Positions 3,600-26,274 of a DNA stretch of 26,274 nt are shown here, piece by piece (positions within the stretch are counted from its first letter, which is position 1; each line of letters starts with the position of its first letter). Origin of the DNA: a virus. The notes below the pieces were generated by a model. That model did no database searches, was not told where the DNA came from, and was given only the letters and a program-made list of their open reading frames with translations. The translations under genes and the position numbers were made by a program. Location: positions 1 to 26,274 of the IMG/VR virus record IMGVR_UViG_3300020477_000114; one strand, given 5' to 3'.

Positions 3600-3811
3600 A
3601 GAACCCTCCGTTGCTCCCGCTTCGATTTTTCCCATGCGTCAAACTCGTCTATAGGATAACGCCACAGGGGCCGCTTGTCACTGCCGAAGTTAACAGCGCA
3701 GGGGATGCGCCCTTGATTTGTCCAGAGCCGCACGGTTGCGGGTTTGATGTTTAGGATTTGGCTCAGTTGCGCGACAGAGTAATATCGTTGCAGTGTCGTC
3801 ATGACTTCCAT
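3563..3811 (-). CDS. xis: Excisionase-like helix-turn-helix protein
   Basis: It is an 82-residue protein with a MerR/excisionase-type winged helix: YYSVAQLSQILNIKPATVRLW is the helix-turn-helix, followed by a wing and YPIDEFDAWEKSK, the usual close of HTH_17-type domains. Such proteins bind near attP and favour excision, or act as small regulators. GGAGG lies 6 bases before the ATG at 3811. It directly precedes and overlaps the integrase gene on the same strand, which supports a recombination directionality role. It could instead be a transcription regulator of the same fold. Confidence 0.8.
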   Translation of the reverse strand: MEVMTTLQRYYSVAQLSQILNIKPATVRLWTNQGRIPCAVNFGSDKRPLWRYPIDEFDAWEKSKREQRRVLWLDTNERCATG

Positions 3812-4336: not shown

Positions 4337-4489
4337 TTATTTTTTTGGCCAGTCTATACCGTGCCTCCGCGTGCTGCGCAGGAACGAGCTTGGTTGACAT
4401 CCCAGCATGTTGGCCGCTTGCCGCGTAGTGTGGCACAAGCGCACAGCGCGCGCGACCCGCTCATAGGTAAGATTAGAGGCTTTGGGCAT
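4337..4489 (-). CDS. Fis-type helix-turn-helix protein (50 aa)
   Basis: This is a small basic protein of 50 residues. The C-terminal half, TRQAANMLGCQPSSFLRSTR followed by RHGIDW, matches the pattern of the Fis/NtrC-family DNA-binding helix-turn-helix (the AA..LG....L.R....GI pattern). There is no activation or dimerisation domain beyond a short N-terminal helix. The ATG at 4489 overlaps the last 17 bases of the sigma-factor gene, so it is probably coupled to sigma translation. A partner role with the sigma factor, such as marking phage promoters, is possible but inferred. The frame ends at a TAA just before a strong stem-loop. Confidence 0.7.
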   Translation of the reverse strand: MPKASNLTYERVARAVRLCHTTRQAANMLGCQPSSFLRSTRRHGIDWPKK

Positions 4490-5363
4490 AGTGCATTGAC
4501 CTCATCTGTTTCAGTTTGGTTAGGGCCACTTCTTTAATCTGTCGCACCCGCTCCCGCGTGACGCCCAGCGCCGCGCCGATCTCTTCTAGCGTTTCCGGCT
4601 CGTCCCCATCGAGCCCATAATAGCGCTGCAATATGTGGCGCATACGCGGGGGCAACTCCTCAAGACCCTGCCGGATTGCGGCCGCCTGTTCTTCTTCGTG
4701 CAGCGTGTCAAGGATCTGGTCGGCGCACTCATCGGGTAGCTCGCTCGTGGCTGCTATCTCGTCGTGTGCAGCCATAAGCACGCCGTTTGGCAGGGCATAG
4801 AGTTCGCGCAGTTCTATCGGGGGGTGACCTGCAGGCGAGTTGTCGGCGGCCAACAGGTCTAGCCGGACATCCGCAAAGCTGGAGCGCCACACACCTACCT
4901 GTCGCGCCTCCGACAGTCCCAACGACTCGTTGACCTGTCTCCACGATACGGCCCGACCCTGCGCCTGCTCCAGCTCCCTCTCGCGCTTTATGTACGCGCG
5001 CCGATCCGTCGCTACGTTAGACGGGTAGCGCACGACTCGCACGTTTTCGTCGATGGCCATGAGTACGCGCTGACGTATCCAGTGGACGGCGTAGGTGATA
5101 TATTTCTTTCCGGCGTCCACGTCGAATTTGTCCAGCGCCACGGCGAGTCCGATAATGGCCTCTTGCACGAGATCCTCAAATGTGACGCCGCGCCCTCGAT
5201 ATTTTGCGGCCTCGGATACGGCAAACCGGGTGTTGCTCCGTATCACCTTCTCGCGCGCCTGCTGGTCACCCGCCTGCGCCGCGCGTATCAGTTCCTCCTC
5301 CTCTGCGCGCGGCAGCGGGGGCAAACTGAGCTTTTTTATGTGTTCAATCTGGCTTTCTTTCAT
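4473..5363 (-). CDS. RNA polymerase sigma-70 factor, RpoD-like
   Basis: It is a 296-residue sigma factor that would redirect host RNA polymerase to particular promoters. Region 1.2 (EELIRAAQAGDQQAREKVI), region 2 (GRGVTFEDLVQEAIIGLAVA, then KYITYAVHWIRQRVL, with the core-binding and -10-melting positions), region 3 and region 4 (LPPRMRHILQRYYGLDGDEP, then the helix-turn-helix ALGVTRERVRQIKEVALTKL) can all be seen. It is therefore a full group 1/2-type factor rather than an ECF sigma. The length equals short primary sigma factors lacking region 1.1. CGGAG lies upstream of the ATG at 5363. The start overlaps a 41-residue gene and the end overlaps the Fis-like gene, giving a coupled trio. A likely role is switching on later phage genes. 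Confidence 0.92.
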   Translation of the reverse strand: MKESQIEHIKKLSLPPLPRAEEEELIRAAQAGDQQAREKVIRSNTRFAVSEAAKYRGRGVTFEDLVQEAIIGLAVALDKFDVDAGKKYITYAVHWIRQRVLMAIDENVRVVRYPSNVATDRRAYIKRERELEQAQGRAVSWRQVNESLGLSEARQVGVWRSSFADVRLDLLAADNSPAGHPPIELRELYALPNGVLMAAHDEIAATSELPDECADQILDTLHEEEQAAAIRQGLEELPPRMRHILQRYYGLDGDEPETLEEIGAALGVTRERVRQIKEVALTKLKQMRSMHYAQSL

Positions 5364-8032: not shown

Positions 8033-8217
8033 TGGGCACACTCCTCGCATCTTATACCGCCCGTGCGCCCGTCGTACTGCGCCTCTACGCCGACCGCCAC
8101 CAAGCGGCAGCAGTCGTAACACTGCCCGCCCTTTGTAGCGATGACGATATAGCGGGCGTTGGGGCGCCGGGCGACAACGGGACGCGGGTTGTTTATGTAG
8201 CGTGATTGATACCTCAT
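8029..8217 (-). CDS. Small CxxC zinc-ribbon-like protein (62 aa)
   Basis: Two cysteine pairs, CYDCC near residues 34-38 and CEEC near 58-61, frame a beta-rich stretch and would form a zinc ribbon. The N-terminus is basic (RYQSRYINNPRPVVARRPNA). AAGGAGG lies 5 bases before the ATG at 8217, which decides the start against the longer frame from 8346 that would read through a palindromic element. It overlaps the downstream membrane-protein gene by 4 bases. The role is unknown; such small Cys-rich proteins are common in early phage operons as host-takeover or nucleic-acid-binding factors. Confidence 0.6.
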   Translation of the reverse strand: MRYQSRYINNPRPVVARRPNARYIVIATKGGQCYDCCRLVAVGVEAQYDGRTGGIRCEECAQ

Positions 8218-8233
8218 GCTGCCTCCTTTTAAA

Positions 8234-8275
8234 CGGGACAACAGTTGGCCATTATTTGCGTCAACTATTGTCCCG
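8234..8275 (-). repeat. 42-bp palindromic element, copy B
   Basis: Read on the minus strand it begins CGGGACAATAGTTGAC, continues with CAAATAA and ends CAACTGTTGTCCCG. It matches copy A (2101-2142) at 36 of 42 positions, including the loop. Several differences keep or wobble the pairing (C-G for T-G, T-G for T-A, T-A for C/A). It lies between two early genes, 16 bases after one stop and just before the next ribosome binding site. Confidence 0.85.
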
Positions 8276-8290
8276 CTTTCCTGTATTTTA

Positions 8291-8584
8291 TTAATCATCT
8301 GCAATCGACTGGCAATGTGACCACCAATCACGGACGCGCTCCACATCTGCTCTATCCCACGTTCTCATCGCCCCTAGGCCGGGCGGACGCGAGATGTCGA
8401 GAGTGTGCCGAAATTCTCGATGTGACCCACCAAGTCGCACATACACTGACAGCGTCTTTGTGTCGCCCCCTTGAACCCTCAGCGTCGCCCCGTACCACTT
8501 CGATCCTAGCGGCTCGTCACTATATATTTCTATCATGTTGTCGCTAATGCGTTCCGCTGTCATTTTAGTCGTTTGAGTTTGCAT
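8291..8584 (-). CDS. Hypothetical early protein (97 aa)
   Basis: It is a soluble, beta-rich-looking protein with DNMIEIYSDEPLGSKWYGAT and TLSVYVRLGGSHREFRHTLD, ending in a charged helix with DRADVERVRDWWSHC. I do not recognise the family. GGGAGG lies 8 bases before the ATG at 8584. It is the second gene of the leftward operon and is followed by palindromic copy B. Confidence 0.6.
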   Translation of the reverse strand: MQTQTTKMTAERISDNMIEIYSDEPLGSKWYGATLRVQGGDTKTLSVYVRLGGSHREFRHTLDISRPPGLGAMRTWDRADVERVRDWWSHCQSIADD

Positions 8585-8603
8585 TTTACATTCCTCCCGT
8601 TGA

Positions 8604-8834
8604 TTAGGCGCTCAACTCTTGTGCTTGTGAGATAGCATAGTAGCGGTTTGTGGCGAGAGCGCGGCGATTGCGCGGCTGCTTCGGGGCGACGGCGGTGCAG
8701 TCGAGGCAATGGTAGGTGCCGCCGCGGACATACATCGGCAAGCCGAAGGCGTCGCAGGTGGGATTGTCGCAGAGCGGTATGTGGTTGGGGATGTTGCGGT
8801 CGAGATGCGAGGGTGTTACCTTTGTTCTAATCAT
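8604..8834 (-). CDS. First gene of the leftward operon: zinc-ribbon protein (76 aa)
   Basis: Cysteine pairs CDNPTC near residue 22 and CLDC near residue 43, separated by FGLPMYVRGGTYH, make a plausible zinc ribbon. The C-terminus is basic (KQPRNRRALATNRY). Start ATG 8834 is preferred over GTG 8840 because AGGAG is about 9 bases before the ATG and only 3 before the GTG. It is the first gene behind the leftward promoter, so it is expected to be made earliest. The function is unknown. Confidence 0.6.
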   Translation of the reverse strand: MIRTKVTPSHLDRNIPNHIPLCDNPTCDAFGLPMYVRGGTYHCLDCTAVAPKQPRNRRALATNRYYAISQAQELSA

Positions 8835-8867
8835 GTCCACCGGCTCCTAGGCTGAGGGTGTGATTGT

Positions 8868-8898
8868 GGCCCGTTGAGTGCTCTAACACTCGCGGGCC
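8868..8898 (-). promoter_or_regulatory. 5' leader stem-loop of the early operon
   Basis: GGCCCG...GAGTG at 8868-8880 pairs with CACTC...CGGGCC at 8887-8898 (about 12 pairs, one bulge and a G-U option, 6-base loop). The predicted leftward transcription start near 8909 places this hairpin about 11 bases from the RNA 5' end, upstream of the first ribosome binding site. It could protect the mRNA 5' end or act as an attenuator or antitermination site. Confidence 0.55.
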
Positions 8899-8915
8899 TT
8901 TCTAATTGATGTCTA

Positions 8916-8944
8916 AATATAAGCCACTGTGGACTAAAGGTCAA
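8916..8944 (-). promoter_or_regulatory. Leftward early promoter (PL-like)
   Basis: On the minus strand, TTGACC (8944-8939) and TATATT (8921-8916) are separated by exactly 17 bases, a good sigma-70 promoter. The -35 overlaps a 24-bp element (8928-8951) that matches the operator in the opposing promoter at 16 of 24 positions, with TTGAC and TTAGTCC at the same spacing. It should drive the operon from 8834 down to the integrase. Confidence 0.75.
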
Positions 8945-8970
8945 GCTCTTTTTTGTAAATTGGTAGCAAT

Positions 8971-9006
8971 ATAGGACTTGACACTTAGTCCTATATGGAT
9001 CATATT
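8971..9006 (+). promoter_or_regulatory. Rightward promoter with perfect dyad operator (PR-like)
   Basis: TTGACA (8978-8983), a 17-base spacer and CATATT (9001-9006) form the promoter of the regulator gene. The inverted repeat ATAGGACT-N8-AGTCCTAT (8971-8994) is perfect and covers the -35 box. This is the layout of an autoregulated repressor: protein bound there would block polymerase. Confidence 0.8.
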
Positions 9007-9028
9007 GAGAGGAAACAGGAGGATGGCT

Positions 9029-9241
9029 GTGAGAATACGAGAGCAGGCGATAGTCGCGCTTATGGGCGTGGCGGGGATCAAGACTAAGACGGCACTGGCG
9101 CAGCGGTGCGGCTGGTCGCCGCAACTCTTGGATCGATACCTGCATAACCGCCGCCGCAGCTTCTCGACGACTACGGTCGATAAGCTCTGCCGCGCGCTGG
9201 ACGCCCAGCCCGGCGACTTTCTGGAGTATGTTGCGGAGTAG
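9029..9241 (+). CDS. Small Cro/CI-type helix-turn-helix regulator (70 aa)
   Basis: It is an XRE-type DNA-binding domain filling the whole protein: IKTKTALAQRCGWSPQLLDR is the helix-turn-helix, SFSTTTVDKLCRAL the following helices and QPGDFLEYV the usual closing phrase of the HTH_26 group. There is no dimerisation or peptidase domain. GTG at 9029 is chosen because AGGAGG lies 6 bases before it, while the ATG at 9023 directly abuts that site. The gene follows its own promoter with a perfect dyad operator, so autoregulation is likely. It could be the lysogeny repressor, a Cro, or a controller (C) protein for the downstream nuclease/methylase pair. Confidence 0.85.
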   Translation: MRIREQAIVALMGVAGIKTKTALAQRCGWSPQLLDRYLHNRRRSFSTTTVDKLCRALDAQPGDFLEYVAE

Positions 9242-9258
9242 TAGAGATTGAGGCGGGG

Positions 9259-9283
9259 CGCAGAAATAATTGCTATTTCTGCG
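9259..9283 (+). other. 10-bp perfect hairpin after the regulator gene
   Basis: CGCAGAAATA and TATTTCTGCG form a perfect stem with a 5-base loop, 17 bases after the regulator stop. There is no T-tract, so it is not a terminator by itself. It may stabilise the regulator mRNA 3' end ahead of the true terminator at 9354. Confidence 0.45.
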
Positions 9284-9353
9284 GTATGGCACTACATTCG
9301 CTGGTGTAGGCCGAAAGTCTAATGGCATTGGGCTGACCGTCTACTGTTTGACG

Positions 9354-9389
9354 CCGCCGGGGTGTTCGCGCACTCCGGCGGTTTTTTTT
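9354..9389 (+). terminator. Intrinsic terminator of the regulator transcript
   Basis: An 11-bp stem (CCGCCGGGGTG with CACTCCGGCGG, one G-T pair) with loop TTCGCG is followed by eight Ts. It should end rightward transcription from the regulator promoter. Confidence 0.88.
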
Positions 9390-9454
9390 GTGACCTCCTA
9401 CGATACGATACTATACACCGGAAGTCAATAAAAAAACCCGACAAGAAAAAGGGT

Positions 9455-9484
9455 AAGCGTTTGTCTTTTTTTTTGCAAACGCTT
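9455..9484 (+). other. Inverted repeat with T-run in its loop
   Basis: AAGCGTTTG (9455-9463) and CAAACGCTT (9476-9484) are perfect complements. The 12-base loop is almost all T. Alternatively GACAA upstream pairs with TTGTC to give a weak stem followed directly by nine Ts, i.e. a second terminator. It belongs to a roughly 370-base stretch (9242-9613) that otherwise holds only hairpins and candidate control sites. Confidence 0.5.
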
Positions 9485-9512
9485 GATCCCTATGTCTAAT
9501 ATCCTGAGTGCT

Positions 9513-9582
9513 ATAGGACAAATATCAAACCCTATTATTTGCCCTTGCGTACGCGTGGCCGCTTGGTCATATTGCGTATAAT
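9513..9582 (+). promoter_or_regulatory. Candidate operator and -10 box ahead of the nuclease/methylase pair
   Basis: ATAGG-N13-CCTAT at 9513-9535 repeats the outer arms of the regulator operator (there ATAGG-N14-CCTAT), starting with the same ATAGGAC. A perfect TATAAT lies at 9577-9582, about 30 bases before the nuclease ATG, but without a good -35 box at 17 bases. Control by the regulator is therefore possible but unproven. Confidence 0.35.
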
Positions 9583-9613
9583 TGGTGCGCTTTTCCTCCT
9601 GTTTCGTAGCCCA

Positions 9614-10174
9614 ATGCCACGCGCACTACGCCGCTGGGGTGCAAGATACGAATTGCACCCCAGCGGCCCACTCTTGTCTAGGTCTACCGTGGACTGTCGC
9701 ACACCTAAGGGCGAGGTCGCTATTGCACTTGAGCAGACCGCCGCCGCCCGTATCTGCGCCGCCTTGCGCTGTCGGGGCATCCGACTGCCCGCCACAGCTC
9801 GGCTGGATCGGCTGTTGGTGCGAGACAATACGCTCGTTGCTCTCGCGGAGATCAAGTCCCGCAACCTGACCCGCGCCCAGCTCGACGAATACGGGAGTTA
9901 TCTCGTCACCGCCCGCAAGTTAGACGACCTCGCCGCAGCGGCTGCGCTATACGCCTGTCCGGCGTATCTGTTTGTCTTTTTGGCGTTGGATGAGGACATT
10001 ATCTATTGGCCCGTGGCCGATGCCTCGGGGCGCATCTGCGTAGACCACACCCGCGCCCACACCGAAACCCAAAAATCTATTAATGGCAACACTGCACGCC
10101 GACAGAACGCCTATCTGGCACTGGAGGGGTGCCAGACTATTGAGCGGACGACTCCGCGGGAGATGGCAGCGTAA
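9614..10174 (+). CDS. PD-(D/E)XK nuclease-like protein
   Basis: It has 186 residues. ARLDRLLVRDNTLVALAEIK gives the D65 ... E79-x-K81 signature of PD-(D/E)XK nucleases on consecutive strands, preceded by a helix with E40-Q41 and followed by the helix LDEYGSYLVTARKLDDLAAA and strand YLFVFLAL. Such folds cut DNA in restriction, repair and recombination. The ATG at 9614 is preferred over upstream TTG codons although no ribosome binding site is visible; its context AGCCCAATGCC recurs at other starts in this window. The stop overlaps the ATG of the methyltransferase gene as TAATG, so the two are coupled. It may act as a restriction-like or host-DNA-degrading nuclease; specificity is unknown. Confidence 0.65.
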   Translation: MPRALRRWGARYELHPSGPLLSRSTVDCRTPKGEVAIALEQTAAARICAALRCRGIRLPATARLDRLLVRDNTLVALAEIKSRNLTRAQLDEYGSYLVTARKLDDLAAAAALYACPAYLFVFLALDEDIIYWPVADASGRICVDHTRAHTETQKSINGNTARRQNAYLALEGCQTIERTTPREMAA

Positions 10175-11544
10175 TGGGAGATACTGTATTGGCATTGCCC
10201 TGTAGTTGCGATTCTGGTGGGCGCTTGCGGCGGGTGGCTGTGGATCAACTGCAGGCGTATCAGGGCAACCTAAAGACGTTGCACGAGGCGCAGTACGCTA
10301 AGCTCAAGGCTAGTATGGAGCAGAAGGGTTTTTTTGCGCCGATCTTCGTATGGGCGGGCCATAACTATATACTGGATGGACACCAGCGCCTGCATGTGCT
10401 TACGACTGAGCGGTGGACGGTAGAGGGGGGCGTGCCCGTGGTCGAGATTGAGGCCGACGACGAGAAAGACGCAGCCGAGAAGCTGTTGCTATTGTCCAGC
10501 ACTTACGGCAAGATCGACGAGCAGGGGGTGTATGAGTTTACCTCGGCGCATGACATCTCGCTAGCCGAGTGGGACTTGTCCGACTTGCCGGATTTTGATT
10601 TGCCGGACTATCTCGAGGGGTATTACGATGCGCCGCACAATGGGGACGCGCCGCCCGATGAAATACCCGAAGTGGCCGAAGAGTCGGTCACATGGTCCGG
10701 CGATTTGTGGGTCTTGGGTGAGCATCGGGTGTTGTGCGGCGACTGCACAATACGAGAGGAAGTGGATCGGCTTATGGATGCCGCGCAAGCCGATCTGTTT
10801 ATTACTGATCCTCCTTACGGCGTGGGGTTCGTCGAGAAGGCAAGGAGTTTGCACGAGCGCGGTTATGGTTTTGCTGCCAGTAGTGGACACGCTTTGATTA
10901 GCAACGATCAAGCGACCGAAGACGATGATGGAATTAGTAAATTCTTAGAAGTGGCGCTGAATGCTTGGTGGGCGAGTGGGCAGCTAAAAGCCGGGGGCGC
11001 GTTTTATGTATGTGCGCCCGCGGGAAGGACAGAAACTACATTCAGAAATGTTATTGATAAGTTTTGGCCGCTTCGGCAATGTCTGGTGTGGGTGAAGAAT
11101 AGCTTTGTTTTGAGTCGCCAAGATTACCATTGGCGACACGAGTCTATATTATATGGCTGGAACAATAATGGTAGCCATTTTTTTTGCGAAGATCGCTCCC
11201 AAGATACGGTTTGGGAAATTAGCCGAGACCTCGTCAGTGATGGCGGTAGCGAGGATAATGTACATCCTACGATGAAACCCGTGGCCCTCATGGTGCGTAT
11301 GTGTGCTAATTCTTCCCGCGTAGGTGAATTGGTAGTTGATCCCTTTTTAGGGTCGGGCACTACTTTGCTGGCGGCAGAGCAAACGCAGCGGCGCTGCAAT
11401 GGGATGGAATTGCAACCCGCGTATGTGGATGTAATTGTCAAGCGCTGGCAAGACTACACCGGACAGGAGGCCACGCTGGACAGCGACGGGCGCACCTTTG
11501 CCGAGGTTGCCCAAGAGCGGCGAGGAGAGGCGGTCGACGCGTGA
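10174..11544 (+). CDS. ParB-domain DNA methyltransferase fusion
   Basis: It has 456 residues. The N-terminal part (about 17-125) is a ParB/sulfiredoxin-like domain with ILDGHQRL (66-73). The C-terminal part is an amino-methyltransferase that would methylate adenine N6 or cytosine N4: motif IV DPPY at 211-214, the SAM-binding motif DPFLGSGTT at about 389-397, and HPTMKP before it. The motif order IV then I is that of beta-type enzymes. Such ParB-methylase fusions are frequent in phages and protect DNA or mark it for packaging or replication. Bases 11041-11220 hold only 74 G/C of 180 by hand count (41%), against 57-68% in two 60-base samples outside it, so the target-recognition part may be acquired. 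It overlaps the nuclease gene by one base. Confidence 0.88.
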   Translation: MGDTVLALPCSCDSGGRLRRVAVDQLQAYQGNLKTLHEAQYAKLKASMEQKGFFAPIFVWAGHNYILDGHQRLHVLTTERWTVEGGVPVVEIEADDEKDAAEKLLLLSSTYGKIDEQGVYEFTSAHDISLAEWDLSDLPDFDLPDYLEGYYDAPHNGDAPPDEIPEVAEESVTWSGDLWVLGEHRVLCGDCTIREEVDRLMDAAQADLFITDPPYGVGFVEKARSLHERGYGFAASSGHALISNDQATEDDDGISKFLEVALNAWWASGQLKAGGAFYVCAPAGRTETTFRNVIDKFWPLRQCLVWVKNSFVLSRQDYHWRHESILYGWNNNGSHFFCEDRSQDTVWEISRDLVSDGGSEDNVHPTMKPVALMVRMCANSSRVGELVVDPFLGSGTTLLAAEQTQRRCNGMELQPAYVDVIVKRWQDYTGQEATLDSDGRTFAEVAQERRGEAVDA

Positions 11545-11566
11545 CCACTATATCGAAGTTTACATA

Positions 11567-11992
11567 ATGCACAAGGTGACCGACCGGCAAATTGAGACAG
11601 TACTAGCCCAAACGGGTGGGCTGATTGCGCCTGCTGCTAGGCAGTTGGGTGTGACGCGTAATGCTATCTACAAGAGGGTTCGGGAGAATCCCGATTTGCG
11701 CGATTTGCTGGACGAGATACGAGAGAGCCACATTGACTTTGCCGAGGGCCAATTGCTGGGCAAGATCCGCGAGGGGCACCCCGCTTGTATTATGTTTTTT
11801 CTGCGGACGATTGGAAAGAGCCGTGGCTACGTCGAGCGGGTGCAGGGTGATTTGAGAGTAGAGCAAGTGCCGCAGAAGCCACTGAATTTGCCGCCGCCGG
11901 TGGAGGATTACAGGCAGTGGCAACAGCAGCGGGCGGTGAATCCCGTGGCAGCGGGTGAGGCAGAGGATGCCATTATCACAGAAGAGGACTAG
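11567..11992 (+). CDS. terS: Probable terminase small subunit
   Basis: It is a 141-residue protein with an N-terminal helix-turn-helix (TGGLIAPAARQLGVTRNAIY) followed by a helical region (LRDLLDEIRESHIDFAEGQL) and IMFFLRTIGKSRGYVER, a phrase common in small terminase-like DNA-recognition proteins. The C-terminal 40 residues are Pro/Gln-rich and probably flexible. It would recognise the packaging site and hand DNA to the large subunit. The start at ATG 11567 follows the methyltransferase stop by 22 bases; upstream starts would overlap it. The ribosome binding site is weak. One small gene separates it from the large subunit. Confidence 0.75.
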   Translation: MHKVTDRQIETVLAQTGGLIAPAARQLGVTRNAIYKRVRENPDLRDLLDEIRESHIDFAEGQLLGKIREGHPACIMFFLRTIGKSRGYVERVQGDLRVEQVPQKPLNLPPPVEDYRQWQQQRAVNPVAAGEAEDAIITEED

Positions 11993-11997
11993 GCCGC

Positions 11998-12240
11998 ATG
12001 AGCGAAAAAGAAGAAACACCGCAAGCGCCGGTGCAGCCCGCAGTGCATACCATACTGACCGCATTCTCGCAGACGTTGGCCGACATTGCGATAGTTGCGG
12101 CGATGTCGGGCTATGCCAGCCGCACCAGCGCACAATACAGCGACGAGGACATGGCGCGCTATGACGCCGCGTGCGTGCGCCTGCTTGTAGACGTAGGGGT
12201 TGATCCGGCGCCGATAGACGAGGCACAGGAGTCAGATTAA
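11998..12240 (+). CDS. Small hypothetical protein between terminase genes (80 aa)
   Basis: The family is not recognised. The protein is helical, with an Ala-rich middle (FSQTLADIAIVAAMSGYASR) and an acidic C-terminus (DVGVDPAPIDEAQESD). It starts 5 bases after the small-terminase stop and ends 30 bases before the large subunit, so it is clearly part of the packaging operon. A role as a packaging accessory factor is possible only by position. Confidence 0.55.
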   Translation: MSEKEETPQAPVQPAVHTILTAFSQTLADIAIVAAMSGYASRTSAQYSDEDMARYDAACVRLLVDVGVDPAPIDEAQESD

Positions 12241-12248
12241 GGCGATTT

Positions 12249-12278
12249 ATGGGAGGGTCCTTCCTACCAAATGACTGA
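12249..12278 (+). other. 9-codon minicistron overlapping the terL start
   Basis: ATG 12249 encodes MGGSFLPND and stops at TGA 12276-12278, just after the terL ATG at 12271. AAGG lies 6 bases before its ATG. The only other candidate for a terL ribosome binding site is GGGAGGG, 13 bases from its ATG, which is inside this minicistron. It may feed ribosomes into terL. Confidence 0.3.
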
Positions 12279-13701
12279 AGCCATCGCCCCACCCGGGGAG
12301 CAGGACGCGCCTTATTCGTGGGAGCCGCAAGTGGGGCCGCAGTCCGACGCGATACAGGCGGCGGGTTTTTGCCAAGAGCTGTTTTTTGGCGGCGCAGTGT
12401 TTGCGGGCAAGACCTATTTTCTGCTGGGCGACTTTGCGCAGGACTTGCATCAAGCGGAGAATTGGATCGGCCTGTTGTTCCGCAAGACCGGCCCCGAGCT
12501 GGACGACATTATTGCCAAGTCGAGGCGTATCTACCCGCATTTAGGGGGGCGCTTTATCGTGGGTCGCCGCACGTGGGTTTGGGAGAGCGGACCGTTTAAG
12601 GGTGCTGAATTGAGGATGCGGCACATGGAGAACGAGAAGGACTTTGAGCTGTATATGGGCTGGGACTTGTCTTGGATCGGTTGGGACGAGTTGCCGAACT
12701 GGAGCAGCCTGTTGCCCTATAAACAGATGATTTCACGCCTGCGCGGCAAGGCGAACCGTAAACGTATACGCGCCACCGGCAACCCCGGCGGGTTGTGCCA
12801 CAACGAAATCAAGGAATATTTCCACATTGGCACCCACCCGCACGGCAATAAACTGGTCTACAATACGCGTTCTAAGATGCACAAGATGTTCATACCGGGG
12901 CGCGTTACAGACAACAAAAAGGGCCTTAAGGATGACCCAGACTATCTGGACAGGCTGCAGGGGGTAGGCGACACGGAACTGATTAAGGCGTGGGTGGACG
13001 GCGACTGGGATGCAGTGGTAGGGAGCTACTTTTCGATGTTCAGAAAAAGGGACGTGTTGGTGCCAGCGTTTGAGATCCCCCAAAACTGGCCGCTGTTTGT
13101 CGCGATGGACTACGGGGAAGAGAACCCCACCGCGGCGGTATTGCTGGCGGTGGACTACGATGACAACGCGTGGGTGGTCAATGAATACTACCGACCCGGC
13201 CCGTGCGCGGGGATGGATCACGCTCTCGGCGTGCGGGCAATGGTGGAAAACTGCCCGTTCACGGGGGGGCGCCGTCCGCGCTTGCTTCTTGCGCCCGGCG
13301 ATATGTGGACAGTACGCAAGCCGGGCGAGGCCAGCAAGGCACTGGCGCCCGCTGACACGTTTACCCAACAGCACCTGCACTTGACGCGGTGCAATATGGA
13401 TCGGGTCAACGGGGCGCGCAATGTCAAGGACTTACTATATGGCGGGCGGCTGAAATTCTTTGAGGGTTACACCGACCGGGTGCTCTCGTCATTGGGCAGC
13501 GTGCAGCGCGACCCGCACAACCCCGAGGATGTGCTAAAGGCGGGCGACGACCACAGCTACGACGCCCTGCGCTACGGCGTTAACCACGTCTACAAGCCGC
13601 GCCGGATCGTGGTGAAAGATAAGGGGGTAGGCACGGCGGCGCATTTGCTGGGCCAGATAGCAGGCATGGCGCAACACAAGCGGAGGTATGTGACACAATA
13701 G
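12271..13701 (+). CDS. terL: Terminase large subunit
   Basis: It is a 476-residue DNA packaging motor with an ATPase and a nuclease. Walker A GGAVFAGKT (40-48), Walker B LSWIGWDE (133-140, catalytic E140) and the coupling motif ATGNPGG (168-174) are intact. The C-terminal RNase H-like nuclease begins at FVAMDYGEENPTAA (D280) and ends with DDHSYDALRYG, giving the expected acidic residues. The length is typical for a full terminase. ATG 12271 is the only ATG after the upstream in-frame stop. It follows the small-subunit region and precedes a gap with a strong terminator before the portal gene. Confidence 0.93.
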   Translation: MTEAIAPPGEQDAPYSWEPQVGPQSDAIQAAGFCQELFFGGAVFAGKTYFLLGDFAQDLHQAENWIGLLFRKTGPELDDIIAKSRRIYPHLGGRFIVGRRTWVWESGPFKGAELRMRHMENEKDFELYMGWDLSWIGWDELPNWSSLLPYKQMISRLRGKANRKRIRATGNPGGLCHNEIKEYFHIGTHPHGNKLVYNTRSKMHKMFIPGRVTDNKKGLKDDPDYLDRLQGVGDTELIKAWVDGDWDAVVGSYFSMFRKRDVLVPAFEIPQNWPLFVAMDYGEENPTAAVLLAVDYDDNAWVVNEYYRPGPCAGMDHALGVRAMVENCPFTGGRRPRLLLAPGDMWTVRKPGEASKALAPADTFTQQHLHLTRCNMDRVNGARNVKDLLYGGRLKFFEGYTDRVLSSLGSVQRDPHNPEDVLKAGDDHSYDALRYGVNHVYKPRRIVVKDKGVGTAAHLLGQIAGMAQHKRRYVTQ

Positions 13702-16044: not shown

Positions 16045-16383
16045 ATGACCGCCCCCGAGTATCACGCCTTGAACTTGGCGGACTGTTCATGGCGCCATTA
16101 CCTACTAAGCATGGCAGAGATTAAGACAAAGAAAGCACCCCTACTAAGCATGGCAGAGATTAAGGCAAAGAAAGCACCCGCAAAGAAAAAGGCCGCAGCA
16201 AAGAAGGCACAAGTGAAAGCACCGAGCAACCCCGATCCCCAACCGCCCGCGGTGGACGCCGTAGAGGCGGCGCGGGCGGGCTTAGAGGCGGCGATCATTG
16301 CCAACACCAGCGACGGCAAGCAAGTCGCCCAGATCAGCCTGCAGGCGCTGTCAAGGGCGAAGGACTTATTAAATACGCTATGA
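16045..16383 (+). CDS. Lys/Ala-rich small virion-module protein
   Basis: From ATG 16045 the protein is 112 residues; starts at 16111 and 16150 are equally possible because a 39-bp tandem duplication repeats MAEIK and its ATG. The core (AKKKAAAKKAQVKAP) is very basic, histone-tail-like, and a helical C-terminus follows (ARAGLEAAIIANTSDGKQVA). None of the starts has a good ribosome binding site. It lies between portal and the Cys-motif gene and overlaps the latter by 4 bases. It may bind DNA or the acidic scaffold inside the head, but no family is recognised. Confidence 0.5.
   Translation: MTAPEYHALNLADCSWRHYLLSMAEIKTKKAPLLSMAEIKAKKAPAKKKAAAKKAQVKAPSNPDPQPPAVDAVEAARAGLEAAIIANTSDGKQVAQISLQALSRAKDLLNTL
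16102..16179 (+). repeat. 39-bp tandem duplication spanning a start codon
   Basis: CTACTAAGCATGGCAGAGAT and the following 19 bases occur twice in direct succession (16102-16140 and 16141-16179) with a single A/G difference. Each copy carries an in-frame ATG and encodes MAEIK(T/A)KKAP. The near identity indicates a recent event. Confidence 0.92.
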
Positions 16384-17861: not shown

Positions 17862-18845
17862 ATGGCTCAGACTACTTCAGAAGTATGGGACTCGCGTTGG
17901 ACAAGCACCCGCCGCTCAATACAGCCCGAGGTTGTTGACAACTTCTTCGAGGACTACCGGGCGCTGGCGATGCACCGACGCCGCGGCTTGCAGATGACTA
18001 GCCAAGGCGGCAAAGAGATCCATGTCATATTGGAGAGCGGCGGCGGCAGCGCCGAATCTTTTGACCGGTATGACAGCCTGAATAAAAACCCCATCGACCC
18101 ATTCGAGAGTGGATTTTTCAAGCGCCGCTACTACGCGGTGCCGGTCGTACTCGCCGATACAGAAGATTGGGAAAACAGCGGGCCGGAACAGGTGTTTAAT
18201 CTGTTGGAGGCGTTAGGAAATAACGCCATGAACAGCCTGTTAAAAGCGATCAATGAAGACATTTTTTCCGCGCAGTCCGGCAAAAACATCCTCGGCTATC
18301 AGGACCACATGGCCGACGCGGCAGGCGCTACGGTGGGCGGCATTAATTCCAGCACCAGCACTTTCTGGGAAAGCCAGCGCGACACCTCTGCGGTTACATT
18401 TACGTCGCAGACCGTCACGGATATTTTTGATGGCATCGCCACATGGAACAATGTCCTCGATTTATGCCAGATACAGGGCGGGACGATCCGGCAAATCTTA
18501 ACCACCTATTCGATTTGCCGCGCCTACCGCGAAGCGCTTTCGTCGCAGGCGTATGCCCGCACGACCACGCAGGACGCAAAAGGGATTGGCGGGTCACAGA
18601 TGCCCGATTTTTACACCGCCGAGGTTATCCCAGACAACGACTGCCCGGCGCTCCATAGCTACTTCCCAAACACCCAAAACATCAAGCTGAACGTGTTGCG
18701 GCAGGCCAACTTCCGTAAAACGCCGTTTGTGTCGATGCAGTCCAATGGCCAGCTGGCGCAGTTGGCATACATGGTTGCTGGCGTGCAGCTCACCAACAAT
18801 AACCGCCGCCGTAGTGGTGTAGCCACCGCTATTACCGGCAGCTAA
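17862..18845 (+). CDS. Major capsid protein
   Basis: It has 327 residues. The N-terminal segment (DNFFEDYRALAMHRRRGLQM), the beta-rich ESGFFKRRYYAVPVVLADTE and the C-terminal NFRKTPFVSMQSNGQLAQLA look like an HK97-fold coat: N-arm, spine helix (EQVFNLLEALGNNAMNSLLK) and P/A-domain strands. AGGAG lies 10 bases before the ATG at 17862. It directly follows the scaffold gene and precedes a hairpin and a decoration-like gene. No propeptide is evident. The call rests mainly on context, length and overall pattern. Confidence 0.82.
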   Translation: MAQTTSEVWDSRWTSTRRSIQPEVVDNFFEDYRALAMHRRRGLQMTSQGGKEIHVILESGGGSAESFDRYDSLNKNPIDPFESGFFKRRYYAVPVVLADTEDWENSGPEQVFNLLEALGNNAMNSLLKAINEDIFSAQSGKNILGYQDHMADAAGATVGGINSSTSTFWESQRDTSAVTFTSQTVTDIFDGIATWNNVLDLCQIQGGTIRQILTTYSICRAYREALSSQAYARTTTQDAKGIGGSQMPDFYTAEVIPDNDCPALHSYFPNTQNIKLNVLRQANFRKTPFVSMQSNGQLAQLAYMVAGVQLTNNNRRRSGVATAITGS

Positions 18846-20553: not shown

Positions 20554-21264
20554 ATGCTACTCTCTGACGCCATTACCACCGTACTGCAACGCACGGGGTT
20601 ATCCACATCCGTGGACTCGCTGCGCGACAACGCGCGCACCTATCTGTCGATGGCGACCACCGAACTGCTGTCAATGGATGTGCCGTGGTGGTTTTTGGAT
20701 CAGACGGCGACCTTTACCACCGCCGCCGGGACTCGTGCCTATCAGCCCATCTCGGCACAGGTGGCGGCGTGGTATTCGTTCGTCGACGAAACCAACAACC
20801 GGGCGCTGCCCATCGTCGGGGCCGATGAATACGACGCGAACGACCTCGACCGCACAGAGACGGGCGACGCTGACTATGTCTACGTGGCAGGGCTGGACGG
20901 CACCACGGGCTACCCGGTCATAGAGATTACGCCTACGCCCGGCACCACGGGCGACAGGATACGGGTGCGCTATCGAGCAGACGTCGCCACCTATACCAGC
21001 GCCAACGATGCCACCGACTTAAGCGTATTGGGTCTGCCTAAGATTGCTGAGAACTGCATTATTTACAACGCCGCGTCCCTGTATCTACTGGACGAGGGCG
21101 ACACCGACAGCGCCGCACGGGAGGCCGCACGATACGGCGATGCGCTAACGCTAGCAATTGGTCAACATCGCCGGATGCAAGGCAACCGCCGTTTCCCCCC
21201 GCGTCGCGGGTTGGAGGAGCGCGGCCTTATCCGGACAGATTCGTCACTAATTGTGTCGTCATAA
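20554..21264 (+). CDS. Head-tail adaptor-like protein (236 aa)
   Basis: The N-terminal helices (LLSDAITTVLQRTGLSTSVD, then ARTYLSMATTELLSMDVPWW) and the later helical segment with IAENCIIYNAASLYLLDEGD, AAREAARYGDALTLA, match the layout of podovirus adaptor / tail-tube-A proteins that sit under the portal. The middle is beta-rich and carries VIEITPTPGTTGDRIRVRYR, a phrase typical of that group. It starts one base after the upstream stop without its own clear ribosome binding site. This gene supports a podovirus-type head-tail joint. Confidence 0.65.
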   Translation: MLLSDAITTVLQRTGLSTSVDSLRDNARTYLSMATTELLSMDVPWWFLDQTATFTTAAGTRAYQPISAQVAAWYSFVDETNNRALPIVGADEYDANDLDRTETGDADYVYVAGLDGTTGYPVIEITPTPGTTGDRIRVRYRADVATYTSANDATDLSVLGLPKIAENCIIYNAASLYLLDEGDTDSAAREAARYGDALTLAIGQHRRMQGNRRFPPRRGLEERGLIRTDSSLIVSS

Positions 21265-21275
21265 TGGACTAGACT

Positions 21276-24026
21276 ATGCCTCCTGAATTTTCAGCGACAC
21301 CCGGCACGCGGCGCAAGAAACGCCAAGCCAACCCCCTGCTCCAGCAGACGGCAGACCTCTTTGCGCGTTCTATCTCGCAGGCAGGACAACAAGACCCCAT
21401 CACGAAGGCCGAGTTGGGAGAGTTTGACTTTGGCGCGAAGCAGGCCCGCCAGCAGCAAATAGAAGACCTTAACCGTTTTAATGTGATCGGACGACAGGGC
21501 GTTTCGTCCGGTCGTGCTGCCGATATCTTAGGTGCATTTGACAGCGGCATAGAGCGCGGCAGGGACGCCATCAGAGCGCGAGGGACAGACAGGCTATTCA
21601 ACACCATCGTGCCGCAAGCGGTGCAGCAGGGGCAGTTTCAGGACGCATCTACGGTGCAAGAGGGGCAATTCCGGTCTAATCAGGAGCTATTACGGGAGCA
21701 GTTGGCCCAGCAGCAACGCCAGTTTGACGTAGGCTCTACGCAACGCGCTTTTGAGTTTAACAAGCAACTAAATGAGGCTGCACTGGCTCGAGAGCTAGAC
21801 CGCGAACGCTTAGCCCAGCAGCAGGGGCAGTTTGACGTAGGTACGACGCAACGGGCCTTTGAGTTTGGGCAAGGGCTAAATCAAGACCGCCGCCGCGTGG
21901 ATCTACAGCAGCAGGCCCAGCAAGAAACCGCACGGCAATTTGACGTAGGCAGCACGCAACGGGCCTTTGAGTTTGGGAAAGGGCTAAACGAGGCGCGGCA
22001 GGCGCGGGAGTTAGAGCGCGAGAGGTTGGGCGAAGAAGGGCGGCAATTTGACGTAGGCAGCACGCAACGGGCCTTTGAGTTTGGGAAAGGACTCAATCAA
22101 GCGCATCTGGCGCGGGAGTTGGAGAGGGAGAGGCTAGCACAGCAACAATTGCAATTTAATCTAGGCCAACAGCAACAGAATAGGCAATTTGTGTTTGCCG
22201 ATCAGTTAGAGCGCGACAGACTGGCCCAGCAGCAGTTGCAGTTTAACTTGGCCGAGCAGCGCGCCGGGAGAGAGTTTGCGTTTGAAGATCAACTGCGGCG
22301 AGACTTGCAGTCGGGACAGGTTGGATTAGAACGCGACAGGTTAGCCCAGCAACAACTGCAATTCAACTTAGCCGAGCAGCGCGCCGGGAGAGAGTTTGCG
22401 TTTGAAGATCAACTGCGGCGCGACTTGCAAGCGGAGCAGATTGGGCTAGAGCAGGACCGGCTGGGCCAACAACAACTGCAATTCAACTTAGGGCAGCAAC
22501 AGCAAGGCCGTCAATTTGCATTTGCTGACCAGTTAGAACGCGACAGGTTAGCCCAGCAGCAGTTGCAGTTTAACTTAGCCGAGCAGCGCGCCGGGAGAGA
22601 GTTTGCCTTTGGAGATCAACTGCAGCGCGACTTGCAAGCGGGCGAATTGGGCTTAGAGGGAGACCGTCTTGCCCAGCAGCAATTACAGTTCAACCTAGCG
22701 CAACAGCAAGCGGCGCGGGAGTTTAGCTTTAGAGATCAGTTGCAGCGCGACCTACAGGCCAATCAGTTGGGCCTTAGCCGCGACGAGTTGGCCCAGCAGC
22801 AATTGCAGTTCAACTTGGCCCAGCAACAGCAAAACCGTCAATTTGTCTTTGCGGACCAGTTACAGCGGGACTTGCAAGAATCTCAGCTGGCAGAGCAGGG
22901 GCGTCAGTTTGATCGCGGTATTACGTTGGCTGAGTTGGAGCGACAAGACGCTGTGCAAAATGCGCTGGCATCTCGGGTAATAGAACGAGACAGATTGGCC
23001 CAGCAGCAGGGGCAGTTTGACGTAGGTACGACACAGCGGTCCTTTGAGTTTAATCAGCAGCTAAATCAGGCACTACGAGACCGGGAGTTGCAGAGGGAGT
23101 TGGAGCAAGGGCGTATAGGCTTAGAGCAAGAGCGCTTAGCCCAGCAGCAGGGGCAGTTTGACGTAGGCACGACACAGCGGTCCTTTGAGTTTAATCAACA
23201 GCTAAATCAAGCATTGCGAGACCGGGAGTTGCAGAGGGAGTTGGAGCAAGGGCGTATAGGCTTAGATCGAGAGCGTCTAGCCCAACAGCAGGGGCAGTTT
23301 GACGTAGGTACGACACAGCGGTCCTTTGAGTTTAATCAGCAGCTAAATCAGGCACTGCGAGATCGGGAATTAGAACGCGAGAGGTTGCGACAGCAGCAAC
23401 GTCAGTTTGACGTAGGTACGACACAGCGCGGCTTTGAGTTTAATCAACAGCTAAATCAAGCATTGCGAGATCGGGAGTTAGAACGCGAACGCCTAGCCCA
23501 ACAGCAGGGGCAGTTTGACGTAGGTACGACACAGCGCGGCTTTGAGTTTAGTCAGCAGCTAAATCAAGCACTGCGAGATCGGGAGTTAGAACGCGAACGC
23601 TTAGCGCAGCAGGACAAGCAATTTGGTCTGAGCTTCCAGCAGGGACAGGATCAGATAGCTTTTGATAAAGATCGTGACATGCTCAATATGGCATTGGCAC
23701 TATCGGCGGCGAGACGCAGTGATCCTCTCGCAATGATCAATCAGGCTCGTTTAGATTTACCTGCTTTATTGGAAGGCAATGTTACGGGAGAAAACATAGA
23801 AGAACTGCTTCAGCAAAACAAGATCGGTGACACTATAGATCAACAAGTTGCCGAGGCTCTATTGGGGGCGCCTTCTGATGTTATTGACAAATTTGTCCAG
23901 AATCTTATGGGCACAGTCAATAAGGGTATGCAGATGACCGACGCGGCCAAGAGAAGCCAATGGAGAAGCTTTGTCCAGAATCTTCTGGGATTAGAGGATG
24001 ACGATGACCCATCGCCATTTGACTAA
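21276..24026 (+). CDS. Gln-rich long-repeat virion protein (916 aa)
   Basis: Residues about 143-790 consist of 18 units that begin LAQQQ or close variants, each with a QFD-V-G or QFN-L phrase, a Phe-rich centre (SFEFNQQLNQALRDRELERE or REFAFEDQLRRDLQ) and an ERDR end. Unit starts in bases are 21702, 21810, 21918, 22026, 22134, 22221, 22341, 22461, 22548, 22668, 22788, 22887, 22995, 23136, 23277, 23385, 23493 and 23601. Unit lengths are only 29, 33, 36, 40 or 47 residues. The N-terminal 140 and C-terminal 130 residues are non-repetitive; the end is acidic (EDDDDPSPFD). Its place after the adaptor suggests an ejected internal or needle-like protein. No known family is recognised. Confidence 0.75.
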   Translation: MPPEFSATPGTRRKKRQANPLLQQTADLFARSISQAGQQDPITKAELGEFDFGAKQARQQQIEDLNRFNVIGRQGVSSGRAADILGAFDSGIERGRDAIRARGTDRLFNTIVPQAVQQGQFQDASTVQEGQFRSNQELLREQLAQQQRQFDVGSTQRAFEFNKQLNEAALARELDRERLAQQQGQFDVGTTQRAFEFGQGLNQDRRRVDLQQQAQQETARQFDVGSTQRAFEFGKGLNEARQARELERERLGEEGRQFDVGSTQRAFEFGKGLNQAHLARELERERLAQQQLQFNLGQQQQNRQFVFADQLERDRLAQQQLQFNLAEQRAGREFAFEDQLRRDLQSGQVGLERDRLAQQQLQFNLAEQRAGREFAFEDQLRRDLQAEQIGLEQDRLGQQQLQFNLGQQQQGRQFAFADQLERDRLAQQQLQFNLAEQRAGREFAFGDQLQRDLQAGELGLEGDRLAQQQLQFNLAQQQAAREFSFRDQLQRDLQANQLGLSRDELAQQQLQFNLAQQQQNRQFVFADQLQRDLQESQLAEQGRQFDRGITLAELERQDAVQNALASRVIERDRLAQQQGQFDVGTTQRSFEFNQQLNQALRDRELQRELEQGRIGLEQERLAQQQGQFDVGTTQRSFEFNQQLNQALRDRELQRELEQGRIGLDRERLAQQQGQFDVGTTQRSFEFNQQLNQALRDRELERERLRQQQRQFDVGTTQRGFEFNQQLNQALRDRELERERLAQQQGQFDVGTTQRGFEFSQQLNQALRDRELERERLAQQDKQFGLSFQQGQDQIAFDKDRDMLNMALALSAARRSDPLAMINQARLDLPALLEGNVTGENIEELLQQNKIGDTIDQQVAEALLGAPSDVIDKFVQNLMGTVNKGMQMTDAAKRSQWRSFVQNLLGLEDDDDPSPFD
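21702..23635 (+). repeat. 18-unit coding repeat array
   Basis: Two groups of units alternate in blocks: the QFDVGTTQR type at both ends and the QFNLAEQRAGREFAF type in the middle. Units at 22995-23135 and 23136-23276 are almost identical in bases, pointing to recent duplication, whereas older units have drifted at synonymous positions. Confidence 0.9.
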
Positions 24027-24171: not shown

Positions 24172-25794
24172 ATGGCAAGTTTTCTTAAATCAATAGGCGA
24201 TACATTAACAAATCCCGGCTTTCTCATTCCGGCTGCGGCTACCGTTGCTTCGGGCGGCACCCTCTCGCCGTGGCTTCTTGCGTCAGCGGGCCTATCTACT
24301 GTCTCAGACTATGAACGGCAGCGCCAGCAGGAAAAGTTCTCTCGTCGGCAGAGGGACGCCCAGAGATTTGCGAACCTACAGCAAGCCATCTCTCCTAGGG
24401 GTGAACGCTTCCAGCCTGCCTATTCGGTGCCGAAGCTGAGTCTATTGGGCCGGGTGGCAGACTTAGGGGCTACGGGGATCGGTGCCTATAGAGCTTTCCA
24501 GCAGGCGCAGGCGGCGGCAACGCGGGCGGCCAAGGAAGACCAGCTATTGGACGAGCAGCTAGGCAGTATACGCCAAACCCGTGCGCAGAATCAGGCGGCA
24601 TTGGAGGCCGATTTTGGTCGCCGCGCCGCCGGGCAAGCCACAACGATGGGCGAGGCCTTGCAGCAACAGGTGCCGGTGCGTGTCGAGTCTTTCAATCGAG
24701 GCACTACCTTTGATCAGCCCGTATCGGTGGGGGCTTTGACAGATGGCGTTATACTTGGGGCAGAGCCAACACCGGGTTTTATGCGGGCATTGGGCGAGGG
24801 GGTGCAGGCGAATATAGACCAAGGGCGCCAGCGCCGGTTTGTAGAATCGCAAATTGCCGCTAATGAGGGGCGGGCTGCGAGTTCGGCAGCAAGACTGTTG
24901 GAAGCGCGCAACGCAGAATTGAAAATAGGGATGGAGGTGCGGGCCGATCTTATAGCAGACACCTTTGCCCGCTTAGGCCGACTCAATCCGCGTATGGATT
25001 TGGCTGAGTTATTGAAAAAGGACGAAACCGCCAAGGTTTTTAATTTACTCAAACCGGATGAGTTGGCGGTAGCGCAAAACGTATTCGTAGAGGCACAGCG
25101 CGATGCACTAGACGCCACAGACAAATTCCTTGGCACCACCGTCACGGGCCGTTTTAACGACGATGCCTTAATCCGCAAATCGTCCGACCTTACGCTGGGT
25201 ATGAGCTTAGTCGAGGCGGGATTCCAAGAGCAAAACGGTTTTGGTGATGCTTTGATGGTAAACGGTGGCAGTCGCGTACAAGACCCCGGAGGTGTAGTAA
25301 GACCCGTTGAAGCCGAGAACTTAGAAGCGGCGGCGGGCTTTTTGGCAAGAATAGGCGTAATCACTTCGGGTGAAAAATTCGTAGAGGGCGACAGGTTTAC
25401 GCCCCAAGTGCGCGTCAAATTGTTAAACGCTATGCTAAATGCATATCAACGCAACGCTACTAATGTAGGGGCGAAAGTGGATCAAATCTCCGAATCTCTG
25501 CTTGGACTTGAAACGGTGAAGAATAACATGGAAGCTTTCAACGTTTTCAAGCAGGGGTATTATATACCGCAATACAAAGTCGCCCCGCGCACCCAAGAAC
25601 TATTGGATACCATTGGCGCGCCAACGATATTAAATTTTGGCACCGGTCAGGGCGGCACTGGTAATACTACTCAACCAACGGTAAGCGAGTCAACCCTGCA
25701 AACAACAACACCGTCCGGCTTTGATATGAGCAACCCCGCAGACAGAGCACTTTGGAATATTGTTAAACCTTTGGGATCTAAAAAAGTCGAATAA
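24172..25794 (+). CDS. Putative internal virion / ejection protein (540 aa)
   Basis: An N-terminal hydrophobic stretch (PGFLIPAAATVASGGTLSPW followed by LLASAGLSTVSDY) comes first, then a long charged helical region rich in Gln/Arg/Ala (QAQAAATRAAKEDQLLDEQL), and a mixed C-terminal part with Ser/Thr/Gly-rich tail. Hydrophobic N-terminus plus long helices fits pilot or ejection proteins that enter the host envelope with the DNA. It lies between the repeat protein and another hydrophobic protein, as ejection genes do in P22-like and T7-like phages. No specific family is recognised. Confidence 0.5.
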   Translation: MASFLKSIGDTLTNPGFLIPAAATVASGGTLSPWLLASAGLSTVSDYERQRQQEKFSRRQRDAQRFANLQQAISPRGERFQPAYSVPKLSLLGRVADLGATGIGAYRAFQQAQAAATRAAKEDQLLDEQLGSIRQTRAQNQAALEADFGRRAAGQATTMGEALQQQVPVRVESFNRGTTFDQPVSVGALTDGVILGAEPTPGFMRALGEGVQANIDQGRQRRFVESQIAANEGRAASSAARLLEARNAELKIGMEVRADLIADTFARLGRLNPRMDLAELLKKDETAKVFNLLKPDELAVAQNVFVEAQRDALDATDKFLGTTVTGRFNDDALIRKSSDLTLGMSLVEAGFQEQNGFGDALMVNGGSRVQDPGGVVRPVEAENLEAAAGFLARIGVITSGEKFVEGDRFTPQVRVKLLNAMLNAYQRNATNVGAKVDQISESLLGLETVKNNMEAFNVFKQGYYIPQYKVAPRTQELLDTIGAPTILNFGTGQGGTGNTTQPTVSESTLQTTTPSGFDMSNPADRALWNIVKPLGSKKVE

Positions 25795-25798
25795 AATT

Positions 25799-26274
25799 AT
25801 GGCAAAAGCACAGTCATTTCTTACCCGCTTAGGTTTAGCGTTTGCGCCCGACACAACAGGTGCCCACGCCATGTTGCGGCAATCGGGGTTGCAACCTTTT
25901 CGCTTTCCCGATGGGACATTGGGCGCGTTTGCGCCCGAAGATACGGCAAGAATTAACGACTTGCACCGATGGCTGGAAAAGCCGGAACACCGGCGGCGAA
26001 TGGACGAGAACCCAACCTTGCGCATAGCAATAGAGGAATTTGAGCGTTCCGTTATGGAGCGCTCCCGCGTAGACCCCGAAGGGTTTGATTTTCCCGGTGA
26101 TATAGCCGACCTCAGTGGCGATGCTTTAATTAGCGGTGCCTCTGCTATGGGGGGGCTAATTGGGGCACTAAGAGGCGTGCCTCTTAGTCCAGCGGCCTCC
26201 ATACCGATGGGCTTAGCTGGTGCCGCAAGCATGGGGGGGGCTGCTGAAAAGGTACGTCAAGACATTGGCCGCTG
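25799..26274 (+). CDS. Putative internal virion protein with glycine-zipper segment, 5' part only
   Basis: ATG 25799 opens a frame that stays open to the end of the window (158 codons), so the gene is cut by the edge. It begins MAKAQSFLTRLGLAFAPDTT four bases after the previous stop. Residues about 30-100 are soluble and charged. From about 110 comes a Gly/Ala-rich hydrophobic segment with repeated small residues (SGASAMGGLIGALRGVPLSP, then MGLAGAASMGGAAEK), a glycine-zipper-like pattern that can insert in membranes. This suits an ejection or pore-forming virion protein. The opposite-strand frame in this stretch is a shadow. Confidence 0.6.
   Translation, partial: MAKAQSFLTRLGLAFAPDTTGAHAMLRQSGLQPFRFPDGTLGAFAPEDTARINDLHRWLEKPEHRRRMDENPTLRIAIEEFERSVMERSRVDPEGFDFPGDIADLSGDALISGASAMGGLIGALRGVPLSPAASIPMGLAGAASMGGAAEKVRQDIGR

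Follow-up and report, generated by a model that had tools for sequence, protein, structure and literature searches.

A tandem helical-repeat protein encoded beside the head-tail adaptor gene of a phage as a candidate ejection-type internal virion protein

Related delivery systems and the gene neighbourhood

The ejection proteins of the podoviruses T7 (gp14, gp15 and gp16) and P22 (gp7, gp20 and gp16) are largely helical and are encoded by three consecutive genes beside the adaptor and nozzle genes. In ejected T7, gp14 was described as two antiparallel helices (PMC11784390). In phiX174 the H protein forms a decameric alpha-helical tube which is composed of hendecads and heptads and lined with Q, N and R (PMC7354561). 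Moreover, designed coiled coils carrying two distinct hydrophobic seams assemble into large barrels (PMC6175849). The window analyzed in our study, an IMG/VR contig taken in full (26,274 bases), contains an open reading frame for a repeat protein of 916 amino acids (21276-24026, plus strand), and a homologous ORF is found at the equivalent place in many IMG/VR relatives. It likewise belongs to three consecutive genes beside the adaptor and nozzle genes, but it differs from the T7 and P22 clusters in the lack of detectable sequence homology, in its long tandem array and in the position of the nozzle gene, which comes last.

The head-tail adaptor gene is located directly upstream (20554-21264, plus strand; in a profile-profile comparison the profile of the window family matched the Mx8-type adaptors with E 1.4e-5 and a probability of 80%). 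The second gene of the cluster (24172-25794, plus strand; 540 amino acids) matches the gene at the equivalent place in the relative L018 (BLAST E 3e-7), and the third (25799-26274, plus strand) is cut by the contig end. The major capsid protein gene (17862-18845, plus strand; PHROG 9953, E 6e-34) encodes a protein 25-32% identical to the capsid proteins of Mx8, BUCT555, ppBjS10J-1 and 45A6. In L013 the second cluster gene is homologous (E 1.6e-22) to p56 of Mx8, which carries the annotation "virion structural protein", and in three relatives (L018, L026 and L029) the gene next after the third cluster gene is of the nozzle type. The order in the family is adaptor, repeat gene, two genes and nozzle, with the repeat gene opening the three-gene cluster. 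Similarly, the three internal-protein genes of T7, P22 and BPP-1 lie together beside the adaptor and nozzle genes, but with the nozzle first; in Mx8, too, the nozzle gene lies ahead of the genes for internal proteins, unlike in the repeat-gene cluster. Because of this context, i.e. the adaptor, the nozzle and, in L013, the neighbouring p56 homologue, the repeat protein is probably an ejection-type internal virion protein. A preliminary description of this DNA had suggested a DNA-ejection conduit or an internal core; the gene context fits an internal, ejected protein, whereas its role as a conduit is what we infer. We also considered the second cluster gene, whose product has a hydrophobic N-terminus, as the gp14 equivalent instead of the repeat protein.

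Several other features of the window were observed. A tyrosine integrase gene is present on the minus strand (2463-3635), and therefore the phage is probably temperate; despite the integrase, searches of genome contigs with the N-domain and capsid profiles yielded no prophage relatives. The window further encodes a sigma-70-type factor (4473-5363, minus strand; regions 2 and 4, E 1e-13 and 6e-17), a protein with an N6/N4 DNA methylase domain preceded by an N-terminal half that looks ParB-like by eye (10174-11544), and a tail-fibre-like ORF apart from the repeat gene (1-678). A near-perfect tandem duplication of 39 bp (16101-16179) lies within a small ORF situated between the portal gene and the one at 16380. 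Sulfotransferase and glycosyltransferase-type genes, which are absent from the window, occur in the head-gene cluster of four relatives between the post-capsid gene and the neck genes (L023, 5214-7785; L017, 9086-9970; also L018 and L029).

Searches with the whole repeat protein against phage genomes, viral contigs, Pfam and the PDB gave nothing useful, and its sequence matched no PDB entry at E 0.1, phiX174 H included. There was also no sequence match to the T7 gp14 / P22 gp7 family, a comparison in which the P22 gp7 relatives were too alike for a useful profile. Mx8 p54 and its family PHROG 6121 occupy the equivalent place relative to the p56-type gene and display, by eye, a similar motif of R/Q helix, G.GS turn and helix. 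They differ in having no long repeat array, and p54 members frequently terminate in a domain that tail-fibre families also possess. The suspected homology to p54 was not confirmed, as the profile tests were not significant: neither of the PHROG 6121 and 4287 profiles (Mx8 p54-type, DNA ejection) matched any of the repeat ORFs in the 14 records scanned, and hhalign against the p54-type family gave E 0.3-0.7. A weak match to PHROG 10257, annotated as minor head protein (1e-5), was put down to composition, since no stretch passes alone. In these sequence comparisons the repeat protein could not be linked to any known family, ejection proteins included.

Repeat units and helical phase

The N-terminal part of the protein contains a conserved domain at about residues 41-115 (21396-21620, plus strand) that is predicted to be a helical hairpin and carries the motif DLNRF.VIG..GVSSG..ADILG.FD. 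Relatives were gathered from viral contigs with capsid and N-domain queries; a first capsid alignment proved too diverse for scanning. In these relatives an ORF with the equivalent N-terminal domain follows the adaptor gene, the domain is 33-49% identical among them, and its HMM detects it in all 19 analyzed members, window included. Downstream of this domain we counted 18 units headed by QF, starting at residues 149, 185 and so on up to 782, and the unit alignment distinguishes a D kind (QFDVG...) from an N kind (QFNLx...). Four D-type units of 36 residues each (21720-22151) are followed by seven N-type units of 29, 40, 40, 29, 40, 40 and 33 residues (22152-22904), a divergent twelfth unit of 36 residues (22905-23012), five D-type units of 47, 47, 36, 36 and 36 residues (23013-23618) and an incomplete last unit with the C-terminal region (23619-24023), all on the plus strand. 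The count and the order of lengths given in the preliminary description were thereby recovered exactly. Q makes up 22% of the array. Adjacent units are at times near-identical in their DNA (93% identity between units 13 and 14), and between similar units dN/dS is 0.06-0.33 with dS often near 1, the differences being mostly synonymous. From their codons, the repeats are old, maintained and under purifying selection.

It had been claimed that every unit length is a sum of sevens and elevens and that lengths differ by exactly 7 or 11. All five distinct lengths do fall on the 7a+11b grid (P=0.046), but this proves little, as the grid takes in 65% of the integers from 13 to 69; the narrower length set originally named gives P 9e-5, but it was picked after the fact. 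Taken alone, the grid is therefore weak evidence. Within each kind the indels are clean, with 11 residues between 29 and 40 and between 36 and 47, and 7 residues between 40 and 33. The change from 36 to 40, however, is 4, and the step from D-type to N-type consists of several small indels, with two residues absent after QFDVGTTQ, so that the "7" is in part the net result of these.

Conservation of alpha-helical phase by the unit lengths is better supported than the grid. At 100 degrees per residue, the lengths 29, 33, 36, 40 and 47 depart from whole turns by 20, 60, 0, 40 and 20 degrees. When the repeat offsets of 19 homologous phage proteins were pooled, they were most coherent at 3.61 residues, and none of 2000 permutations reached the observed value; coherence was 0.70 overall and 0.95 in the nine arrays without turn modules. 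As these permutations disregard ancestry shared within lineages, the test was run with one member per lineage, and the 12 representatives again gave the 3.61-residue period (0 of 3000 permutations). In the relatives 76% of the offset weight lies within 45 degrees of phase, compared with 23% of integers. A period of 3.61 residues matches the pitch of an alpha-helix that is almost straight. The earlier proposal that unit lengths keep the helix in register holds in the window protein and in its relatives.

The arrays of the relatives vary in motif and length, with Pro-free stretches from 231 residues in L018 to 1061 in L013, which are shorter where turn modules contain Pro. Spacings of 18 and 29 residues are found in L013, a strict alternation of 18 and 11 in L029, 36, 18 and 11 in L020, and 25 and 50 in L054, L056, L061, L062 and L065. 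The lengths and unit counts differ widely between relatives, in agreement with the suggestion that array length is set by repeat number. Turn modules of the LTGxYxGxxTLAAQQL type occur in five members (L017, L018, L023, L024 and L045), which, taken together, showed no phase coherence above that of permutations. These modules interrupt the array and depart from the helical grid, and therefore helical phase is a strong tendency and not an absolute rule. In the L024 homologue (8105-12565) the conserved domain is preceded by a long Pro-rich N-terminal tail, in which a DAVGGRPGQ-type repeat occurs. In L018, L024, L029, L054 and L062 a short helix follows the array, and some of these proteins have there a small DG.xY-type segment which looks conserved by eye.

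Hydrophobic faces and predicted structure

A plain hydrophobic-moment analysis of the window array showed no peak at 100 degrees, and therefore we tested for two stripes. One-stripe power of the hydrophobic residues was 1.4, below the null mean of 5.7, while the second harmonic reached 17.8, a value attained by only 0.3% of column shuffles, which retain the unit structure. The window protein thus lacks the one stripe of a classical coiled coil; in place of the single hydrophobic stripe initially proposed, the second harmonic corresponds to two stripes on opposite faces of the helix. Two opposed stripes were likewise found in L014, L020 and L026 (fraction of shuffles <=0.005). One stripe and not two is present in L029, L032 and L043, and in L013 both signals are borderline. 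Two opposed stripes are expected where a helix has packing partners on either side, as in sheets and barrels. Besides, Gly and Ala together occupy one helix face in L013, L014, L026 and L032, and Q/N lie opposite this face in L013 and L026. In the same face test neither a Gly/Ala nor a Q/N face was significant in the window array, so that a Q-lined lumen is not supported by the window sequence.

The full-length AlphaFold monomer, modelled from ten sequences, is all helix (pLDDT 63, pTM 0.28). The N-terminal domain forms a helical hairpin at pLDDT mostly 69-94, the N-type block consists mostly of long predicted helices, and several helices break with low confidence at QFDVG in the D-type units. 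The D-type stretch modelled with an in-register alignment is one helix over residues 5-215 (pLDDT 67, pTM 0.24). These two models of modest confidence disagree on helix continuity at QFDVG. Neither contains a beta strand, QFDVG included, which speaks against the concern that these Gly-containing segments might be helix-breaking beta structure; the breaks in the full-length model nevertheless stand. Since both models are all-helical and several relatives have a Gly/Ala face, Gly is not demonstrated as a breaker, and the face in these relatives argues for a part in helix packing and not for a regular interruption.

As a single helix, the Pro-free stretch of 668 residues would measure 100 nm and its equivalent in L013 159 nm. 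The head of such a short-tailed phage is expected to be about 60 nm by estimate. An array located in the head would therefore have to be folded there, and the simple long coiled rod that had been envisaged is unlikely inside the head, being probably too long for it.

In Foldseek comparisons with the PDB, two chains of the T7 tail complex ranked first and second (E 1.6 and 1.9), with a Z of 7.2-7.5 that was equalled by unrelated helical proteins. The alignment with 7ey7_A places the N-terminal domain against chain residues 38-139 at 16% identity, and because these residue numbers correspond to a gp14 segment, 37-139, described previously (PMC8954989), we take the matched chains to be gp14. The resemblance of the predicted domain to the two-helix form of T7 gp14 is a weak hint. 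Against BFVD, Foldseek found nothing at E 0.001; Bbp12 of BPP-1, annotated as an internal virion protein, ranked 38th (rmsd 3.4, E 2).

Proposed function and its alternatives

Beyond a helical, two-faced protein that is under selection and encoded in this gene cluster, the steps of the following model are what we infer. We tentatively prefer, at somewhat less than even confidence, an ejection-type internal virion protein of a short-tailed phage whose helices pack laterally and which, once ejected, lengthens the passage through the envelope. The protein would comprise an N-terminal helical hairpin, a long helical tandem array and a short C-terminal region. Each helix may pack against neighbours on both sides, so that several copies or folded-back stretches would form an alpha-helical sheet or cylinder. 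The protein would be stored folded in the head, exit ahead of the DNA with the other two cluster proteins, and build or lengthen a passage through the host envelope. The array could change its length by duplication of phase-neutral units which would leave the packing undisturbed. The sheet or cylinder and the extended DNA passage are proposed by analogy with the designed barrels and the phiX174 H tube. The former are short Type-3 heptad peptides, whereas the repeat protein is a natural array with mixed steps of 7 and 11. With H it shares a Q-rich helix and 11- and 7-residue steps (PMC7354561), but the repeat array is about 5 to 9 times longer, has a mean period of 3.61 and two opposed hydrophobic stripes, belongs to a tailed dsDNA phage and showed no homology to H in the PDB sequence search. 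By this analogy a tube or conduit function is plausible, and the protein perhaps works like H-type or gp14-type conduit proteins, to which it is likened by features and not by family membership.

A rather unlikely alternative is an internal core or DNA-organising protein that folds back antiparallel around the portal or the packaged DNA and is retained, or ejected without forming a channel. The gene context is identical for this reading, a 100 nm helix has to fold to fit the head, the possible hinges at QFDVG in the full-length model would allow such folding, and two hydrophobic faces suit antiparallel sheets too. However, no DNA-binding domain or homologue was found in the family and PDB searches, and the helix-phase rule by itself fits storage no better than a channel. 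It is quite unlikely that the protein forms an external coiled-coil stalk, such as that of a tail fibre, whose length the repeat number would determine. Long helical repeats of variable number would suit a stalk, as would the one-stripe arrays of some relatives for a simple coiled coil, but the one-stripe signal is absent from the window protein, no beta or receptor-binding domain is predicted, and the gene is located in the interval from adaptor to nozzle, next to homologues of Mx8 p56, while the tail-fibre-like ORF (1-678) is elsewhere. It is similarly improbable that replication slippage has merely lengthened a drifting low-complexity linker which is helical but has no specific assembly, for although adjacent units are sometimes near-identical in DNA and copy number differs among relatives, the low dN/dS at dS often near 1, the phase conserved in diverse lineages and a two-stripe pattern exceeding column shuffles speak against it.

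Returning to the ejection-type internal virion protein, its repeat architecture is best read as a new feature among proteins of this type. It is possible, though on balance doubtful, that it represents a previously undescribed class of proteins for genome delivery, with a two-faced and nearly straight helical array which associates with itself sideways into a cylinder and whose length evolves by gain or loss of phase-neutral units. Detailed knowledge of how a short-tailed phage makes its passage through the host envelope is limited to very few phages. If conduit-type helices are composed of countable phase-neutral units, their length, periodicity and oligomer state would become directly testable. 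Moreover, the sequence rule described here, coherence at 3.61 residues together with two opposed stripes, could find similar proteins that are missed by homology searches.
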